Shown here: in pieces, positions 43,242 to 56,121 of the stretch
How the letters are laid out: every line of letters starts with the position of its first letter
Numbering within the stretch: position 1 is the first letter of the stretch
IMG/VR virus record: IMGVR_UViG_3300024264_000011
Coordinates: 43,376 to 107,375 of that record
Reading direction: 5' to 3' (one strand)
Origin: a virus
DNA length: 64,000 nucleotides
Notes under the pieces: generated by a model
Told to the model about the DNA's origin: nothing
What the model saw: only the letters and a program-made list of their open reading frames with translations
Database searches by the model: none
Position numbers and translations under genes: made by a program

Positions 43242-44569
43242 TAGTTTGTACCGTCTAAGTTTACTTGTCCTCCAGACACTTCGATATCTGGTAATCTACT
43301 ACCGCCAAACGAGTCTCTTGAGAGCGTAATGTTAGTCCGAAGTTCACTTCTATTTAGAATGGTATGTTTGACGGCAGCTACAATATACCTCCCGCTGATC
43401 CTTTTGTCAATCTTTACGCGATCTGCTTTTTCTTTCTTTGGATCTGGGATTGCAATATTTATAACATTACCTGCACGATTTCTTAAGTCACCAGGAACCG
43501 CAATGTCTAATTGATTATATTCAATGAAATAATATCTATAGAAAGCTTTCTCAAAGTTCTTATTAATATCATCTATATTATTTTTTTCCGAATCATCAAT
43601 GTTCTCCCAGTCACCAAACGTACTAATTGTTGATGGTCTGTAAATAAATCTACTTCCTCTACTCAACATCTGTCCTATACCACCAGCAAGATATGGTTTA
43701 GTTTTTTCTAAGTGAGAACTAGAATCCCAGAACTCATCTGCATTTGTTCTAAAGACTCTATAAGTTGCTCTGTTAACATCGACATAGATAGAGTCATGAC
43801 AAAAAGCACCTCTCCTCAAGTCATCATAGATGTTGAATGCCTTTGGTGATGCATAATTCATAATACGATACTTATCAGCCGCAGTTAATCCTGGTCCAGT
43901 AGTATTACCTGGAAAATATGTATAAGTAAAATCTTTCTGGGGATATTCATCTTGATCCAACAAAGCATCTATAGACTTGTACCTGAATCCTTCAAATGTT
44001 TCATAGAATAAAAATCCAACAGAGTTTTGTTTATATTCGGGTACTGATCTTGTGGATAACCAATTGAAAAGATCAAACACTCTCCAATTTGGCACGTACA
44101 TATCAAATGGGAAAACAGTTTCGTCAGCATCTAATCCTTTTGTGGAGAAACTATCTCTACGTAAAATTTCTGTGATAATTTCGTTAGACTTCTTACCTTC
44201 AATCCTTTCACATATTCTATAGTTTTCGTTTCTTATACCTTCTAGTGAAATGCAACTCAAGACATATGTTTGCGCTCTCTCCTTCATAGATCTACCATCT
44301 ACCATGTAGACATAGAAGTTCAAGTTGTAATGATACCCATCACTGGAAATTATTATTTCAACTCTCTCCTGACCCATAATGGGCAAACTTGAAATTAAGT
44401 TCTGTCCAATATCTTCTATAGCAAGAGTTGCTTGAAGAGCAGAAGATAATATACTTTCATATAAAGTTATTTCTAACACCAAAGCTTTGATGTCGATCTT
44501 TCTTCTTCCATCCATTGAGTAAAGATTTACCTCACGTAGAGAAAAATCTCCTGGGAATTGGTTTGCCAT
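43241..44569 (-). CDS. gp27: Baseplate hub subunit, gp27-like
   Basis: A 442-residue protein. The N-terminal part (SLREVNLYSMDGRRKIDIKA, then an ITLYES strand) is typical of gp27/gpD-like hub proteins, which form the threefold adaptor between tail tube and spike. The middle 'FDLFNWLSTRSVPE' and the C-terminal strand region (ISGRYIVAAVKHTI) support this. It lies beside gp5 as in T4. The assignment rests on pattern and position; length is close to T4 gp27 (391). Confidence 0.82.
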   Translation of the reverse strand: MANQFPGDFSLREVNLYSMDGRRKIDIKALVLEITLYESILSSALQATLAIEDIGQNLISSLPIMGQERVEIIISSDGYHYNLNFYVYMVDGRSMKERAQTYVLSCISLEGIRNENYRICERIEGKKSNEIITEILRRDSFSTKGLDADETVFPFDMYVPNWRVFDLFNWLSTRSVPEYKQNSVGFLFYETFEGFRYKSIDALLDQDEYPQKDFTYTYFPGNTTGPGLTAADKYRIMNYASPKAFNIYDDLRRGAFCHDSIYVDVNRATYRVFRTNADEFWDSSSHLEKTKPYLAGGIGQMLSRGSRFIYRPSTISTFGDWENIDDSEKNNIDDINKNFEKAFYRYYFIEYNQLDIAVPGDLRNRAGNVINIAIPDPKKEKADRVKIDKRISGRYIVAAVKHTILNRSELRTNITLSRDSFGGSRLPDIEVSGGQVNLDGTN

Positions 44570-47313
44570 TATATCCTATTAAGTACTAAAGTTTCTGAAA
44601 GACCTGATGTATTATTTAGATCCATACTTGTAGCGTTCATAACATTATAGTTATCTCCACGTTTAATTGTCGCGATAATTGATTGATTATTGGTTTGTCT
44701 TGATTGAAGAGTCTGTGTAATTGAGAAAGAAGAACTCAATGCAGGCATAGAAGCAGACGATGGTGTTGATGGAGTTATTTGTGCAGCTGGTATTGAATGT
44801 GCAGCAGAAGTTAGTGTGTCAGCAGATAAAGCAGGCATACCTGCCTTCTGGAACATTGTTGACTTCTGTTCTGGTATTGAATGTGCAGCAGAAGTTAGTG
44901 TGTCAGCAGATAAAGCAGGCATACTTGCCTTCTGGAACATTGTTGACTTCTGTTCTAGTGTTAAAGGTGTAGGAGTAACTCCAGGTGTTGCTGATGCAGT
45001 TGCTGATGGTGTAGTTTGTTTCGGAGACTTTTGCAGGTGTTGCAGTACCTGTTGTGCATAATGATATCTTTCTCCTACCTCTCCATATCCCCAGTATTGA
45101 TAAGATGCTTTCTCTAATTGTTGATCAGTAGAATTTGGATCCATGAAAACTTTATATGCTCCAGGATAATAATTCTTCATTTCCCATAGCATCGCATTAA
45201 TCTGTTCGCCGTCAGAAGCTTCTTTAATATTTTTACCTAAATACTTTTCAATCTTACCTAGACGAGCGGGGTCATCAGACCACGATGCCCAGGATACCAA
45301 ACCGCCATTACGTGATGTACCATCTCCCAAAACCTGTCCCCAATCACGTTGACCATTCCAAGATGATTCCTGTTGAATATTGCCAGCCAAATATGCAGCG
45401 CCCTTATCGGGAACTCCAGCATTTCTAAGCATTTCAGCACCTTTATTCATGTTACCTGCTTGTCCAGAAACAGATGAGGTAGTTCCTGATGGAGTGTTAC
45501 CAGCACCACCTCCAGCACCACCGCTAGCGCCACCACCTCCTCCACCACTAGTTGCTGCCTGAGCTGGTCCACCAAATAAAGATCCAAATATTGATCCACC
45601 ACCTATCAATAACATTTCACCAATCTCTTTGAAGACATCCTTACCAAACATTTTGTCGAGATCTTGCTTCTCTTTTTCATTGTTGATCTTATTCGTAATA
45701 GTTTCAGCGTTACCTTGTGTCTTTCCAATATCTTTATCTGCAACAGCTGTTTCCATGCCAAATAATTTCATAGCAGGAGCTAATACACTAATAGCAATTG
45801 GTTTTACAAATCTACCAACAGAACCCATAGCATCAACTACTGCAAATATTGAACCAAGTATATGAGAACCAAGTACCTTGAATGGTAGAGTTAATATCTC
45901 TGGTATCTTTGCAACTGGTATTACTGCCTCAGTACCATGGAGAATTGCAAGGAATCCTTTTTCTGGTCCAGATACTACACCGCCAGAAGCTAACTCAGGA
46001 GTATCTTCTTTCTTTTCTTCTTTCTTACCACCAAATAAACCTTTGACTCCCTTGTAAATTGATACAGCAATCCATTCACCGGCAAAACTTCCGAGTACTC
46101 CTCCTGCAGTAGCAGCTGCCTTACCTAGTAATAAATTACCAATAACTGGTAAAACACTACCAAGTATAGTACCGACAGTTCCTGCTAAAGTTGCACCGAG
46201 AGCACTACCCAACAATGCGCCAGCAGCTCTTACTAAAGCTTCATCAATTGGTGCGCCGAATGCTAGGTCAACTGCAATTCCTATCAGTGGACCTATAGCA
46301 GGTATCTTTCTGACAACTTTACCAACACTCTTAACAACAGTCTTTGTTACAGCAACCATTCCTTTTGTTATTGCTTTACCGAATACTTTTAGTAATACTC
46401 TTTGTATCATTCTACCAAGAGTCTTTCTAAATGCTTTTCCAGCTAACTTTAATATCCCACCAAAAGAATTCTTTAAACCTTTATCACCAAGTTTAAATAT
46501 ACCTCTGAATATTTTAGTAAATTTTTTGCCAAATTTAAATATATTTTTTAGATCTTTTAATATTTTAAGTGGATTTAGTAACCATCGCAAACCAACAACA
46601 CCAAGAACGAGTTTAAAAAACCCACCTATTTTTTCTAACATGCTATCGCCGCCAACAAGCTCGGCAAAACCAGTCAGCAAATTATCTACTACACCAGTTA
46701 CAAACCAATTAAAAAATGATGCAACATGCTTAAAGATAGTAGTGAATGTCTCTACTATCTTTTTATTTTTTGGATCTCCTATCCATGACAAAACATAATA
46801 CTGTAGAAGATCACCAAGCATACCAAAGACATTAAAGGATGCCTTAGCAATACCTTTATTGATTGTTTTGCCCATTGGCATTGGACCACTTTCTTTTTTA
46901 GTAGTCCTTGTCTTTGGTGTTGGTTGTACAGAATCTAAGTATTTTTCGTGTAGTCTTTTCTTCTCACTCTTTACTGTTACTAGTTTCTTAAATACAGATT
47001 CAACTTCAATAAATTTTTCTCTTATCTTAGTGTAATCTCTTTTAGGTTCTGATTCTTTCTTTTCTACCGTACCCTTTTCTGAAGAAACTATCGCACTAGT
47101 ATCTTGCACCGGCACCGGAGTTATTCTTACTATACCGCCACCGACTCCTCCATCTCCAGATTTCTGATTACCAGCAACTCCACTACGAAATGCCCCAACA
47201 TTAATGTTGGACTTCATCTTACCTTTTTTAAATAAAGATTTTCTTTCCTGGGGAGTTAGGTATTCCCCAGTCTCAGAATCAACACCGTGAGCAATTGCGT
47301 TTAAGTCTGACAT
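44569..47313 (-). CDS. Tape-measure-like tail protein with lysozyme-type domain
   Basis: A 914-residue protein. Residues 1-50 are basic and Gly-rich. Around 175-190 is the motif SWIGDPKNKK, shared with its neighbour. Hydrophobic helices follow to about 430. Near 438-465 is a tape-measure-type motif, ASGGVVSGPEKGFLAILHGT. Residues about 620-760 resemble the Phage_lysozyme2/tail lysozyme family (AAYLAGNIQQESSW, with the likely catalytic Glu in QQES). A 28-residue tandem repeat lies near 790-840. It is probably a tape measure or hub-associated protein that digests the wall during injection. Confidence 0.75.
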   Translation of the reverse strand: MSDLNAIAHGVDSETGEYLTPQERKSLFKKGKMKSNINVGAFRSGVAGNQKSGDGGVGGGIVRITPVPVQDTSAIVSSEKGTVEKKESEPKRDYTKIREKFIEVESVFKKLVTVKSEKKRLHEKYLDSVQPTPKTRTTKKESGPMPMGKTINKGIAKASFNVFGMLGDLLQYYVLSWIGDPKNKKIVETFTTIFKHVASFFNWFVTGVVDNLLTGFAELVGGDSMLEKIGGFFKLVLGVVGLRWLLNPLKILKDLKNIFKFGKKFTKIFRGIFKLGDKGLKNSFGGILKLAGKAFRKTLGRMIQRVLLKVFGKAITKGMVAVTKTVVKSVGKVVRKIPAIGPLIGIAVDLAFGAPIDEALVRAAGALLGSALGATLAGTVGTILGSVLPVIGNLLLGKAAATAGGVLGSFAGEWIAVSIYKGVKGLFGGKKEEKKEDTPELASGGVVSGPEKGFLAILHGTEAVIPVAKIPEILTLPFKVLGSHILGSIFAVVDAMGSVGRFVKPIAISVLAPAMKLFGMETAVADKDIGKTQGNAETITNKINNEKEKQDLDKMFGKDVFKEIGEMLLIGGGSIFGSLFGGPAQAATSGGGGGGASGGAGGGAGNTPSGTTSSVSGQAGNMNKGAEMLRNAGVPDKGAAYLAGNIQQESSWNGQRDWGQVLGDGTSRNGGLVSWASWSDDPARLGKIEKYLGKNIKEASDGEQINAMLWEMKNYYPGAYKVFMDPNSTDQQLEKASYQYWGYGEVGERYHYAQQVLQHLQKSPKQTTPSATASATPGVTPTPLTLEQKSTMFQKASMPALSADTLTSAAHSIPEQKSTMFQKAGMPALSADTLTSAAHSIPAAQITPSTPSSASMPALSSSFSITQTLQSRQTNNQSIIATIKRGDNYNVMNATSMDLNNTSGLSETLVLNRI
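44789..44958 (-). repeat. 84-bp tandem direct repeat in the lysozyme-type tail gene
   Basis: Two nearly identical copies of an 84-bp (28-codon) unit sit head to tail, encoding 'EQKSTMFQKA(S/G)MPALSADTL'. The frame is kept, so it is a repeat expansion in a linker region near the C-terminus. Confidence 0.9.
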
Positions 47314-47317
47314 TTAA

Positions 47318-50035
47318 CTAGAGATTTGTTTTGAAAACTGCCCATAATCCATTGGCAGGTAAAGTCCCACCAAGAGACTGGGTTGTTTGAGTTGTTGATT
47401 GGAATGAAGATTTATCTTGACCTCCACCTAAATCAACAATGGTTGGAGTAGCACTAGAAGATGTTTTAGCTGATGATTGTAACTGTAAACTTTCTTGTTG
47501 CGTTGATTGTAAAGCACTACCAGAAGCTGAAGCAGTGGGAACTATACTAGCTGCAGGATTTTTGTTTTGTTTAAGATCTGTTGCAATATTTGGTGCATTA
47601 ATGTCAGCATTTGGTCTTCTATAAATTTTACCTTGACTACCATAATAATTATTATATCCTTGAGGACTAGCTTCCCAACTAAATGATGCTTTACCAGAAG
47701 AATTGGAAAGAACATTTCCATTAGCAAGAACAACTCCAATATGCGCTTGAGGTGGTGTTTTTCTATCATACATGACCATAACATCACCTGGTTGACGTTG
47801 ATCATATGAAACTTGGGCATAACCAGTACCAATCATATCTTTTTCAGCTGTAGGTACATATAATGATGAACCCCATGGTGGTGTAATTCCTGCTTTCTCA
47901 TATACTTTATTAACTGCCCACACGCAACCATTAGCACCACCATCAGGACCAGAAGCACTAGACATTCCTCTCAAAGATTCAGCGGCCGCTGCGAGACTTG
48001 GAGATGGAGATGATGCAGCAGCCATTTCAGACCAACCAGTTCCATCTTCATTTTTTTGATAAGACTTTCCAGTTTCAGTATTACTATACTGTGTTACTCC
48101 AGCAGCACCTGCATCAGCGTGAGAAGCAAAGGACTGCATTGGTGGTGAACTACTTCCACCTCCACTAGTAACACCAGATCCACTACTAGGAGATCTCAAT
48201 GAAGCCTGCGCTGGTGCAGAAATTAAATTACCCAAGAAATTACCAATACCACCCATCACCTGACCAGCACCACTGAAGAAAGATTGAAATACATTACCCC
48301 CACCTTCTTTCTTTGCGATCTCAACAGACTCTTTAACGTTCTTAATACTTTCCGAGAACTTTTCTAATAGTTTTTCTTTATCAACCTCTTTTATTTCTCT
48401 ATCTTCTCTTGTCTGAGTTTTTAATTGCGTCAATACATTTGTCGGTACACCGAATGTAGATGCAGCCATTCTTATGATAGGTTCTATAATGTTGCCAACA
48501 AATGGAATTTTACTAACAGTTTTTAATATCAATCCAACAATGGCAGTACCAATAATTTTAAATGGCGCAACCATCATATCCATGAATGGTTTCATTGCCT
48601 TAGTTAAGTTCTCAGATATTCCAGCTACATCAACTATTTTTTCTAAAGGATGTACAGTTACACTACCCTGAGTAAGTGATTTATCATCAGTACCTTTAGC
48701 ACCATCTATACCATCAGATCCAGAAGATCCATCAGTACCTTTAGCACCATCTATACCATCAGATCCAGAAGATCCATCAGATCCAGAAGATCCATCAGTA
48801 CCTTTAGCACCATTAGCTCCAGCTGGAGGAGAAACAATACCACCTTCTTTTAATTTTGGCAGTGACTCTGTATCTACTGTCTGTTTATCTCCACCGCCGA
48901 ACCAATTCATTGGATTCAACATGGACATTACACCGCCGCCACCACCTGTTTTCTTTTCTTGTGGTGGTTTTTGTTGAGTCTCTCCTTCCGAAGTAGTAGA
49001 AGTTTCTTCAGTTTCTTCTTTACCAAATCCTAATAATTTTAGTGGATTAAAATTAGATATAATATCACCAACCCATTTACCAAGATTCTCAAACAATCCA
49101 AATGTAATAAAGTTTGCTAGAGCCTTAAAAAGTTCTGGTATAGTTTCAAATAATATTTTTGGTATGTTTAATATATTTTTAAGAAACTCTTCGGGATTAG
49201 TTAACCATTTTAGTGTGATTAAATCCAATAAAGGTGTTAAAAAAGCGCCAAATATTTTCAACGCTGGGCCTATAACAGCAATCATTCTCCCTAACTGACC
49301 ACCAATAAAACTAAAAACTGCACCAAAGAATTTTACTGCACCTTGAAAAAATTCTACGATTCTTTGTACATTCTTTTTATTCTTTGGATCGCCAAACCAA
49401 TCTAATATCTTATATAGAATAAAGTCTTTTACGAAGTCACTTATTAAACCCCAGATTCCTTTAACTGCCTTTTTAGCACCTTTTACTATAGGACTTTCTG
49501 GTTTTTTTCTAGCTCTTCTTACTCTATCTTCTTCTTGTTTTTCTTGTTCTGCATCTCTAGATGCTCTTTCTTTCTCTCTTGATGCAGAAAGAATTCTATC
49601 CTTTATATTTTTCTGTTCTTCCTCTTCAATACTTATTATCTGTTCCAGTAAAGATTTTATATTATCTAGAGATGAAATAATTGCCGCATCTCCGTCATCA
49701 CCACTACTAGATTTTTTTGCTACTACTGTTTCACTCTTTGGTGCAGGAACAATTGCTGACGTATTAATGGCAGGAACTAGAGCACCTCCCCTAGGAACAA
49801 TTGCTCCTCCACCACCACCTTTAACTGTACCCGATTCCCCTTCTCTCAATAAGGATTTCATCTTACCTTTTCTACCACCAAGAGTTCTCTTTACAGCACC
49901 TCTTGCTGCTCCTCGAACACCTTCTCTTATACCACCAGTTATTGTCTGTTTAGCAGCACCCATCGCTGCTGCCCTACCTCCGGCGAGAGCCCCTTTAGCA
50001 AATATTCCTCCTAGTGCGGCGAGTGGTGCTGGCAT
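47318..50035 (-). CDS. Tape-measure-like tail protein with CHAP/NlpC-type peptidase domain
   Basis: A 905-residue protein starting MPAPLAALGGIFAKGALAGG. The start is placed four bases after the gp51 stop; a longer frame start inside gp51 is rejected. Residues about 210-222 carry KILDWFGDPKNKK, the motif shared with the downstream protein. Hydrophobic helices follow. A collagen-like Gly-rich stretch (GSSGSDGIDGAKGTDG) occurs near 402-449. Residues about 692-812 look like a cysteine peptidase of CHAP or NlpC type: Cys in GGANGCVWAVNKVYEKAG and His in PQAHIGVVLANGNVL. Its position directly after gp26/gp51 supports a tape-measure role. Confidence 0.75.
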   Translation of the reverse strand: MPAPLAALGGIFAKGALAGGRAAAMGAAKQTITGGIREGVRGAARGAVKRTLGGRKGKMKSLLREGESGTVKGGGGGAIVPRGGALVPAINTSAIVPAPKSETVVAKKSSSGDDGDAAIISSLDNIKSLLEQIISIEEEEQKNIKDRILSASREKERASRDAEQEKQEEDRVRRARKKPESPIVKGAKKAVKGIWGLISDFVKDFILYKILDWFGDPKNKKNVQRIVEFFQGAVKFFGAVFSFIGGQLGRMIAVIGPALKIFGAFLTPLLDLITLKWLTNPEEFLKNILNIPKILFETIPELFKALANFITFGLFENLGKWVGDIISNFNPLKLLGFGKEETEETSTTSEGETQQKPPQEKKTGGGGGVMSMLNPMNWFGGGDKQTVDTESLPKLKEGGIVSPPAGANGAKGTDGSSGSDGSSGSDGIDGAKGTDGSSGSDGIDGAKGTDDKSLTQGSVTVHPLEKIVDVAGISENLTKAMKPFMDMMVAPFKIIGTAIVGLILKTVSKIPFVGNIIEPIIRMAASTFGVPTNVLTQLKTQTREDREIKEVDKEKLLEKFSESIKNVKESVEIAKKEGGGNVFQSFFSGAGQVMGGIGNFLGNLISAPAQASLRSPSSGSGVTSGGGSSSPPMQSFASHADAGAAGVTQYSNTETGKSYQKNEDGTGWSEMAAASSPSPSLAAAAESLRGMSSASGPDGGANGCVWAVNKVYEKAGITPPWGSSLYVPTAEKDMIGTGYAQVSYDQRQPGDVMVMYDRKTPPQAHIGVVLANGNVLSNSSGKASFSWEASPQGYNNYYGSQGKIYRRPNADINAPNIATDLKQNKNPAASIVPTASASGSALQSTQQESLQLQSSAKTSSSATPTIVDLGGGQDKSSFQSTTQTTQSLGGTLPANGLWAVFKTNL
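48686..48815 (-). repeat. Collagen-like tandem repeat
   Basis: A direct repeat of about 40-60 bases encodes GSDGIDGAKGTDGSSGSDG blocks. G-X-Y triplets suggest a flexible or triple-helical linker between the membrane-like region and the peptidase domain. Confidence 0.8.
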
Positions 50036-50036
50036 A

Positions 50037-50225
50037 TTACTGTTGATTCTTTTGACGTTCGTTTTCTTCCTTAATGTATTCAACCAACATCGTCACATAA
50101 ATCTCTCGTTCCCAAGGAATCATATTTTCTAACTCAGTTAAACTGTACTTATGATGTTGCATCATTGCAAAGTTTACTCTGAAGAAATTTTCTAGAGACT
50201 CATGTGATAGGGCTACGCGAAAAAA
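50037..50225 (-). CDS. gp51: gp51-like tail assembly segment, probably reached by -1 frameshift from gp26
   Basis: This frame encodes about 62 residues ending in a charged helix, with core KYSLTELENMIPWEREIY. This matches the short gp51-type baseplate or tail assembly protein of cyanophages. It has no ATG, GTG or TTG start before an internal Met in NFAMMQHH, which would remove the first 20 conserved-looking residues. The frame is closed by a TGA about 24 bases upstream of the slippery site at 50219-50225. It is therefore best read as the C-terminal extension of a gp26-gp51 fusion made by -1 frameshifting. Start at the internal Met is the alternative. Confidence 0.65.
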   Translation of the reverse strand, partial: FFRVALSHESLENFFRVNFAMMQHHKYSLTELENMIPWEREIYVTMLVEYIKEENERQKNQQ

Positions 50226-50929
50226 CTTGCTAATCCCTCAATAACAACCTCACTTTCAACTTTAGTATTTGGATTTTTTACCGTAACTGTATGTGATAAT
50301 TTAGGCATGGTCTCGAAGAATTTCTGGATACTAATGAACTGTTTAGTGTCCATACCCTCAAGAAATTCTAAGATCTCTTTCTTACTAAAGTTTGAAGATT
50401 CATATACTTCTTCACCTTCTACAATCTGATCAATACACATCGATGCAATTTCAAATACATCATCAACCTCAGACGTAGATTCTTTCATGTTGTTTTTAAT
50501 AAACAGATCCATACTTGGATACTTCATGACAACAGAGACATCATCATTCATTTTAATGATGTTATCATGATCATCAGACTTCTTGACTTGGATGTCATCA
50601 AGATCAATAACTACTGGAACTGTTGACTCGCCATCATCAGGACAAATAATATTTAACTCAACAGTTTCACCAACAGATTTACCTCTAATGTTTAGAAAAA
50701 TATACTCAATATCAAATAACGAAAGAGTATCAACTTTAAATCTAGAAGTCAAAATACAGTTAGAAAGAATTGTCTTCACAGCATTCGCCATCTGTTTTTC
50801 ATCTTCAGTTTCCATGGCAAGAAGAAGAATTTTTTCTTCTTTCACTAGGAAAGGTCTATACTTAATCTTTTTACCAGTTGAAGGAACAACCAACTCATAT
50901 GTAGGCGCAGAAAGCTTTGGTAAAGGCAT
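50213..50929 (-). CDS. gp26: Baseplate hub/tail assembly protein, gp26-like
   Basis: A 238-residue protein starting MPLPKLSAPTYELVVPSTGK. It matches the T4_baseplate (gp26) pattern: a beta N-terminus (KKIKYRPFLVKEEKILLLAM), then LFDIEYIFLNIRGKSVGE near 90, and a helical C-terminus with FFETMPKL. It stops at TAG just after a T-TTT-TTC heptamer. It is the first gene after the late promoter at 50966 and is followed by gp51 and the tape-measure-like genes, as in lambda-type G/GT chaperone cassettes. It likely guides tail or baseplate assembly. Confidence 0.85.
   Translation of the reverse strand: MPLPKLSAPTYELVVPSTGKKIKYRPFLVKEEKILLLAMETEDEKQMANAVKTILSNCILTSRFKVDTLSLFDIEYIFLNIRGKSVGETVELNIICPDDGESTVPVVIDLDDIQVKKSDDHDNIIKMNDDVSVVMKYPSMDLFIKNNMKESTSEVDDVFEIASMCIDQIVEGEEVYESSNFSKKEILEFLEGMDTKQFISIQKFFETMPKLSHTVTVKNPNTKVESEVVIEGLASFFA
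50219..50225 (-). other. Candidate -1 ribosomal frameshift site
   Basis: The minus strand reads AGT TTT TTC GCG TAG in the gp26 frame. T-TTT-TTC fits the X-XXY-YYZ slippery heptamer, and a -1 slip puts the ribosome exactly in the gp51 frame. The gp26 stop is one codon beyond. No strong downstream hairpin is visible by eye. Confidence 0.6.
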
Positions 50930-51816: not shown

Positions 51817-52319
51817 TGAGATGTTTCTCCCCAGACGGCTGATTTACTGTATTGTTGATACATACCTTTCCTTCTTGAAACAAAATTCTCAACGGGAAGA
51901 AAGATAGCTGTTTTATAATCTTCTCTATTTATTTTGTACATCGGAGTTTCTAATCCTTCGATGACATAATTGTGGTAACACTGTGTAGGAAATCTAACGC
52001 TACCTTTTTCAAGACCAAGTATTACATTCATTCTAGATCTGTAACGAAGATAATGTAGGTTAGCACCATAAAATTTAGGTCCGCCACTCAACACATATAC
52101 TAGAGGAAACTCATCATAGAATTTTAACTTCCTTGCATACGTTGCCTTATACTCAAAAAGATAAAGATCACCAGCAGAAGGAACCATAGTTTCTTCCATC
52201 TGTGTCATGTCTGAATATAAATCAGACCGTTGGAAATGCATCCTAACGGCATCCCTATACCAAGAGTAGGACCTTGGTTCTCCTCCTGCTAAATCTGTTA
52301 TCTCTTGAAAGATACTCAT
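51813..52319 (-). CDS. Probable gp2-like DNA end protector
   Basis: A 168-residue basic protein starting MSIFQEITDLAGGEPRSYSW. The middle, DLYLFEYKATYARKLKFYDE and then FYGANLHYLRYRSRM, resembles the family annotated as DNA end protector (gp2-like) in marine T4-like phages. It lies next to gp4 as gene 2 does in T4. Such proteins bind genome ends after packaging and protect them from host nucleases. The assignment is moderate because only a short motif supports it. Confidence 0.55.
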   Translation of the reverse strand: MSIFQEITDLAGGEPRSYSWYRDAVRMHFQRSDLYSDMTQMEETMVPSAGDLYLFEYKATYARKLKFYDEFPLVYVLSGGPKFYGANLHYLRYRSRMNVILGLEKGSVRFPTQCYHNYVIEGLETPMYKINREDYKTAIFLPVENFVSRRKGMYQQYSKSAVWGETSQ

Positions 52320-52753
52320 ACCTTAAGTTCGTCTTCTGTGATTAACATGAACTTATAATTTCTATCTTCACAAAACTCCTGAGCAGCTTTCCACTTAGCT
52401 TGATTTTTTGCGTACTCAGTAACTTCATTGATGTATCTTTTAGTCACCTTCTTTTGAACCTTGGGTTCTCTAGTTTGTTTTTTTGGTTTCACTTCAATAA
52501 GATACTTCTGGATATTGTTGTTAACATCTTGAACTTTAATATAAAAGTCAACAAAGTATCTATGAACTTTACCGTCTAGCGGAGATCTATATGGAATTAC
52601 AATCTCCTCACTACCCCATTCCAGAATACTTCTATTCATGTCACAGTATTTCATAAACTTAAGTTCCCATGATGACCTATAAATAATAGATCTATGATCA
52701 CCACGATATTTTTTAATATTTTTGGGAGAAAATTTTCCCTTTAAAGTATTCAT
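52316..52753 (-). CDS. gp4: Head completion protein, gp4-like
   Basis: A 145-residue basic protein matching T4 gp4 (gp50). The pattern is YRSSWELKFMKYCD, then DFYIKVQD...KYLIEVKPKKQT, which has the TnsA-like nuclease-fold arrangement with the central D...E.K triad. The family completes the filled head before tail joining. The gene overlaps the next by ATGA and faces gp48 across a 33-base divergent gap. Confidence 0.88.
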   Translation of the reverse strand: MNTLKGKFSPKNIKKYRGDHRSIIYRSSWELKFMKYCDMNRSILEWGSEEIVIPYRSPLDGKVHRYFVDFYIKVQDVNNNIQKYLIEVKPKKQTREPKVQKKVTKRYINEVTEYAKNQAKWKAAQEFCEDRNYKFMLITEDELKV

Positions 52754-55792: not shown

Positions 55793-56121
55793 GGTTCTTC
55801 GACGAGTTTTTTCATCTGGGAAATCTCCTCTCGCATACGGCGAAAGACTTGACTAGCATCCGTCTCTCCGGCTTGAGCGACGAATGGTAGAGTCCTAGTT
55901 AACATAATTACAAACTCCTTAGCATCATCTTCTGATGAATACCTTGCTCTAAAGTAAAGCATTTCTTGGAGTTCTAGAAGTCTTTCCATTTTAGAAAGAT
56001 ATTCTTTTCCACCTTCTTGAGAACGAAATTTATAACTCGACATGAGGTCATGGATATCCTCATATATTTGCATCATTTCTGCTGCTTCAGATCGAATTAT
56101 TTCGTTGTTAAAAAATTCCAT
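55789..56121 (-). CDS. DUF1825-family protein
   Basis: A 110-residue helical protein starting MEFFNNEIIRSEAAEMMQIY. It matches the DUF1825 family of cyanobacteria and their phages (F....I..EA.E......L; RM.EEISQMKKL at the end). The function of the family is unknown. It points to a cyanobacterial host. It lies between gp59 and gp32 and overlaps gp59 by 25 bases. Its stop codon is part of the gp32 promoter. Confidence 0.78.
   Translation of the reverse strand: MEFFNNEIIRSEAAEMMQIYEDIHDLMSSYKFRSQEGGKEYLSKMERLLELQEMLYFRARYSSEDDAKEFVIMLTRTLPFVAQAGETDASQVFRRMREEISQMKKLVEEP

Follow-up and report, generated by a model that had tools for sequence, protein, structure and literature searches.

The gp26 gene of this 64,000-nucleotide stretch of viral DNA (the window, part of a 107,375-base IMG/VR virus record) and the short gp51 frame behind it appear to form one tail assembly chaperone (TAC) locus expressed by -1 programmed ribosomal frameshifting, a reading to which we assign a probability of roughly 0.93. 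The proposal rests on the signal in the sequence and how well it is conserved, on the absence of any other start in the clade to which the window belongs, and on homology to gp26 and gp51 of T4, from which we infer the slippage itself, its efficiency, the role of an upstream GAGGG element and the chaperone action of the products.

The gp26 product matches PF12322 (T4_baseplate; E 1.7e-73) and covers positions 5-232 of the 282 in phrog_150. On the minus strand its gene ends AGT TTT TTC GCG TAG, and the first-pass annotation, which had noticed a T-TTT-TTC heptamer one codon before the stop and a -1 slip leading from it into the gp51 frame, was correct on both counts (Table 1). The frame so entered encodes RVALSHESLENFFRVNFAMMQHHKYSLTELENMIPWEREIYVTMLVEYIKEENERQKNQQ, and the junction in the predicted fusion reads LASFFRVALSHE. 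No ATG, GTG or TTG occurs in this frame before its 19th codon, the first being an ATG at offset 60 (counted from the heptamer), and initiation there would drop 18 residues, close to the 20 or so originally estimated. A TGA does close the -1 frame upstream, as had also been claimed, and entry is thus possible only downstream of it; the distance of about 24 nt given for this closure is, however, that from the TGA to the gp26 stop, and the heptamer itself lies nearer (Table 1). Among the 76 window ORFs of at least 80 aa, three carry an in-frame slippery heptamer in their last 45 nt, and of these only gp26 has a long -1 frame without its own start behind it; the arrangement at gp26 is not a product of chance.

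Table 1. Features of the gp26-gp51 locus, in window coordinates.
Feature	Position	Strand	Detail
gp26 / TAC-N, zero-frame product	50213..50929	-	238 aa, C-terminus ...GLASFFA, TAG 50215-50213
Slippery heptamer T TTT TTC	50219..50225	-	X-XXY-YYZ register of gp26, one codon ahead of TAG
gp51 frame / TAC-C	50037..50219	-	60 codons in -1 frame, then TAA 50039-50037
Predicted frameshift product TAC-NC	50037..50929	-	297 aa = 237 aa of gp26 + 60 aa
TGA closing -1 frame upstream	50238..50240	-	13-15 nt 5' of heptamer; from translation
Shine-Dalgarno-like GAGGGA, probable frameshift stimulator	50234..50239	-	GAGGG ends 9 nt 5' of heptamer
Next gene, candidate tape measure (putative role)	47318..50035	-	ATG 50035 just past -1-frame stop

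Comparison of the junction among relatives, which the first-pass annotation had suggested, lends considerable weight to its proposal that a -1 frameshift joins gp26 to the gp51 frame. In a first set of 80 IMG/VR relatives and P-SSM2, every member carries T TTT TTC close to where gp26 stops, together with a -1 frame whose product belongs to the same family of peptides. Further relative searches and isolate records enlarged the set, and profiles of both parts gave 319 two-part loci, mostly from IMG/VR, which collapse to 225 distinct sequences (lineages) at 90% identity. At all 319 loci the frame of the second part is -1 and the overlap holds an in-frame T TTT TTN, with no in-frame fusion, +1 relation or missing heptamer among them. 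Isolates bearing the site infect Synechococcus, Prochlorococcus, Pelagibacter, Methylophilales, Sinorhizobium, Rhizobium, Stenotrophomonas, Vibrio, Aeromonas and Cronobacter; as the nearest named isolate for the window's extension is Pelagibacter phage Mosig (75%), the host of the present phage need not be a cyanobacterium.

Given the AT-richness of these genes and the Phe-Phe with which gp26 ends, the heptamer might be regarded as a by-product of Phe-Phe coding and T-rich codon use, involving no frameshift. We attach next to no weight to this explanation, given that none of the 67 internal Phe-Phe pairs in the same near-window genes is written T TTT TTC. Moreover, the heptamer occurs as TTTTTTC in 195 lineages, TTTTTTA in 21, TTTTTTT in seven and TTTTTTG in two, and TTA or TTG hence replaces TTC in 23 of the 225 with the six T unchanged. 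Since the last base varies, exchanging Phe for Leu, while the six T stay, Phe-Phe coding alone is an insufficient account of the site. T TTT TTC is also present throughout a set of 65 lineages, the naive odds of which, ignoring shared ancestry, are about 1e-57 under synonymous codon use.

Eight loci lacked a second part by profile. Four of these, from distant phages (L084 and L090-L092), turn out on inspection to have a -1 frame exceeding 50 codons, and in three of them the T6 heptamer is absent; among the other four, at least one (L048) is cut by the end of its contig. The Vibrio phages L090, L091 and L092 keep a -1 extension after gp26 (near 2460-2545), and their gp26 genes end not in the T6 heptamer but in CTT TTC AAG, GTT TTT CGC or CTT TTT GCG, which may mean that they slip at another site. 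A scan of viral contigs with Vibrio phage gp26 as query found nothing.

A frameshift would be dispensable if gp51 were a separate protein, translated through re-initiation or translational coupling just past the gp26 stop. In many relatives an ATG stands a few nucleotides beyond that stop (offset 15 from the heptamer), and it is from there that databases annotate gp51; a start codon at 9-18 nt, which could serve instead of the frameshift or alongside it, is present in about 40% of the 225 lineages. The lack of a gp51 start, whose conservation the first-pass annotation had wished to see checked, is in this respect only partly conserved, but it does hold in 66 of the 225 lineages (about 30%), the window's among them, where the -1 frame is free of ATG, GTG and TTG before offset 57 and none therefore precedes the conserved core; this lends further support to the fusion. 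In these lineages, variable sites past the gp26 stop make up 6/15, 9/16 and 16/16 of sites at -1-frame codon positions 1, 2 and 3, respectively, the excess at position 3 being the pattern expected of coding in the -1 frame from the junction onwards. Annotated gp51 starts also wander, from 2 nt past the gp26 stop in P-SSM2 to about 20 in MED4-213, 30 in Mosig and about 50 in syn9 and Melnitz-3, and in doing so remove conserved residues. Further, independent initiation would leave the universal T TTT TTN unexplained, the ATG concerned is buried in a hairpin stem in many lineages, and a Shine-Dalgarno (SD)-like element, located 9 nt from the heptamer, is separated from the offset-15 ATG by more than 20 nt, a distance too great for initiation. 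A separately initiated gp51 therefore retains only a slim chance.

The SD-like element is itself consistent with stimulation of -1 frameshifting. Relatives carry GAGGG or GAAGGG ending 9 nt upstream of the heptamer, with GA and GG near-invariant. Among background Glu codons GAA outnumbers GAG (1128 vs 413), whereas GAG dominates at the element, and where GAA does occur there the rare GGG follows in 12 of 17 cases. Predicted pairing with the anti-SD sequence amounts to -7.06 kcal/mol at the element, compared with -5.90 +/- 0.17 in synonymous shuffles, and yields a z of -11 over the 225 lineages, with each of four subgroups negative (-3.8 to -7.2). Eight control positions in the same genes range from -4.9 to +7.0, a spread which implies that shared ancestry inflates these statistics, and the SD-like site exceeds every one of them. 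An upstream SD-like stimulator is an optional criterion for a -1 programmed frameshift site, and the 9-nt spacing falls inside the 6-17 nt range used for such elements (PMC4066793).

Downstream RNA structure is frequent at -1 frameshift sites, if not always present in prokaryotes, and at this locus it is lineage-specific. Folding downstream of the heptamer gave a mean z of -2.1 in 65 lineages, against 0.16 and -0.44 in controls. About 17 of the 65 form a near-perfect 11-12-bp stem which starts some 5 nt past the heptamer (e.g. L001:1712-1750) and encloses the ATG used by databases as the gp51 start, and others form a small GGTCC/GGACC hairpin. In the window clade, no stable nested hairpin follows the heptamer (z -0.15 to +1.29 within the nearest 34-49 nt), so one common stimulator is either missing there or takes the form of an unmodelled pseudoknot. 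In lineages where the enclosed ATG is absent, a stable hairpin is mostly absent too (mean -3.0 vs -10.9 kcal/mol). Pair counts include some matched changes (e.g. T-A to G-C). A single consensus hairpin for all 64 aligned lineages finds no support: its long stem is paired in 60.8% of cells and does not surpass shuffles in the number of pairs or of pair types, the short stem faring somewhat better. Tentatively, and with more doubt than confidence, we suggest that a fixed core (the SD-like element and T TTT TTN) is combined with an exchangeable downstream module (the 12-bp ATG-burying hairpin, the small hairpin, or none), such that different stimulators, or frameshifting together with re-initiation, may govern how the long chaperone is expressed in different marine phages.

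A run of six T might also invite slippage by RNA polymerase, producing a mixed mRNA population in which the long form is translated from messages short of one base. For transcript slippage in bacteria, a run of six is short; the register of the heptamer (X-XXY-YYZ), its SD-like element and the hairpins downstream all speak for the ribosome, so this explanation merits very little credence.

Homology to T4 proteins provides separate support for ribosomal frameshifting at gp26. The window's extension hits two profiles, namely phrog_634 ('baseplate hub assembly catalyst'; E 5.3e-29) and phrog_150, the gp26 family, the latter over the profile's C-terminal 44 positions (235-278). T4 gp26 covers positions 14-235 of phrog_150, whereas T4 gp51 covers 13-280 and also matches phrog_634, an architecture that the predicted TAC-NC reproduces; PF12322 is matched by both T4 proteins. 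When the predicted fusion is turned into a profile, the alignment of T4 gp26 stops at the shift point, whereas that of T4 gp51 carries on past it. These alignments imply that T4 has two paralogous genes where the present phages have one gene and a slip, T4 gp26 corresponding to the short form and T4 gp51 to the fused form, and hence that the cyanophage 'gp51' is the frameshifted tail of gp26 rather than a truncated gene. That T4 gp51 is a paralogue of gp26 plus extension further favours the fusion proposed in the first-pass annotation. The two T4 genes are divergently oriented, and gene 26 of T4, which ends TTC TTT GAG TTA CTA TAA, has neither a vestigial heptamer nor a related -1 extension behind it.

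By homology and position, gp26 and its extension are probably a tail assembly chaperone pair of the lambda G/GT type. In such a scheme, most ribosomes would terminate at the gp26 stop and release the short chaperone, TAC-N, while a smaller number, detained as the upstream GAGGG pairs with the tail of 16S rRNA, would slip by -1 on the heptamer and read 60 more codons to produce TAC-NC. By analogy with lambda gpG and gpGT, the short form would serve as a coat on the tape measure protein, which the less abundant long form would link to tail tube subunits. The lambda slippery site is G GGA AAG, unlike T TTT TTC in the window. Gene order and the direction of the shift are nevertheless alike, lambda having a short protein, a low-level -1 frameshift near its 3' end, an extension and then the tape measure gene (PMC5009743); we claim no similarity in sequence. 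An AlphaFold2 model of gp26 (pLDDT 85.3) has the HK97 tail assembly chaperone 2ob9 as its most plausible match among solved structures, a weak and no more than suggestive one (probability 0.69, E 0.52; TM 0.39-0.43 on target), which we count among the comparative support for the lambda-type analogy.

The neighbourhood fits the same analogy in part. A tail tube protein is encoded upstream (PF23849, phrog_45), and the G/GT/H order claimed in the first-pass annotation holds up well as an analogy, but profiles give little backing to the tape-measure label of the downstream genes. The product of the first of these is large, with collagen-like repeats and an endolysin-like C-terminal part, and matches phrog_34252 and phrog_1200; that of the second is weakly tape-measure-like (phrog_9570, E 2.9e-4). 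These large proteins might plausibly be tape measures with muralytic domains. The interval 44569-50035 encodes two successive large proteins after gp51, the second with a Phage_lysozyme2 domain, and its DNA similarity to known phages is limited to short patches.

Frameshifting is reportedly described as conserved in several T4-like groups in the 2022 abstract of Vladimirov and colleagues, with T4 using genes 26 and 51. TAC genes were identified in T4-like phages by Vladimirov, Gautam and Davidson (2022, Virology 566:9-15), as relayed by the papers that cite them (PRFect, PMC10885494; phage Adele, PMC12846349). According to one of these, some T4-like groups use separate short and long TAC genes (PMC10885494), and on the citing papers' account both the protein families (gp26/gp51) and the pairing of short and long forms are those found in the window. 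Poly-T slip signals occur in TAC-N genes of T4-like phages, and in the Vandenendeviridae and Andersonviridae (phage Adele) a conserved -1 shift near the end of TAC-N uses a T-rich site, as here, although the invariant motif is GTTTTT there and T TTT TTN in our set (PMC12846349). The principle is therefore established in tailed phages, T4-like ones included, and the window is an unusually clean and conserved example of it; to the question of prior reports, left undecided in the first-pass annotation, these earlier identifications answer yes in kind, so far as the citing papers convey them, and novelty is limited. Text searches of the literature on cyanomyoviruses found no paper describing a gp26-gp51 frameshift, and neither the conserved SD-like element nor the exchangeable hairpin was found in the literature searched. 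The upstream element, the lineage-variable hairpin and the explanation of 'truncated' or 'missing' gp51 annotations are possibly new details.

Cyanophage gp51 has been described as about 20% of the usual length, with the first ~200 residues missing, and Aeh1 as lacking gp51 (Sullivan et al., 2010; PMC3037559). Both observations follow if gp26 supplies the first part of the protein through the slip. In Aeromonas phage AS-szw and Cronobacter phage LPCS28 (L085:2504-2680 and L087:2468-2640, respectively), a -1 extension lies unannotated behind T TTT TTC. As AS-szw (Ceceduovirus) presumably belongs to the genus of Aeh1, such an extension would explain the published absence. More broadly, what is recorded as 'gp51, baseplate hub assembly catalyst' across hundreds of contigs and records of marine T4-type phages would be neither a truncated gene nor one in its own right but the frameshifted end of gp26, which would correct annotations with wandering starts and those of a 'truncated' or 'missing' gp51. 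T4 gp51, essential but of unknown function (PMC3004832), would gain a concrete and fitting role as the long tail assembly chaperone.

Two other loci in the window deserve mention. Three genes upstream of gp26, positions 52316-52753 encode a 145-aa protein with a TnsA-like endonuclease N-terminal domain (PF08722, E 2.7e-24), probably a head completion protein of the T4 gp4 type. A 200-aa minus-strand ORF has a T TTT TTA at 56109-56115, three codons short of its end, and the -1 frame at this site leads into a 110-aa gene with its own ATG at 56121.
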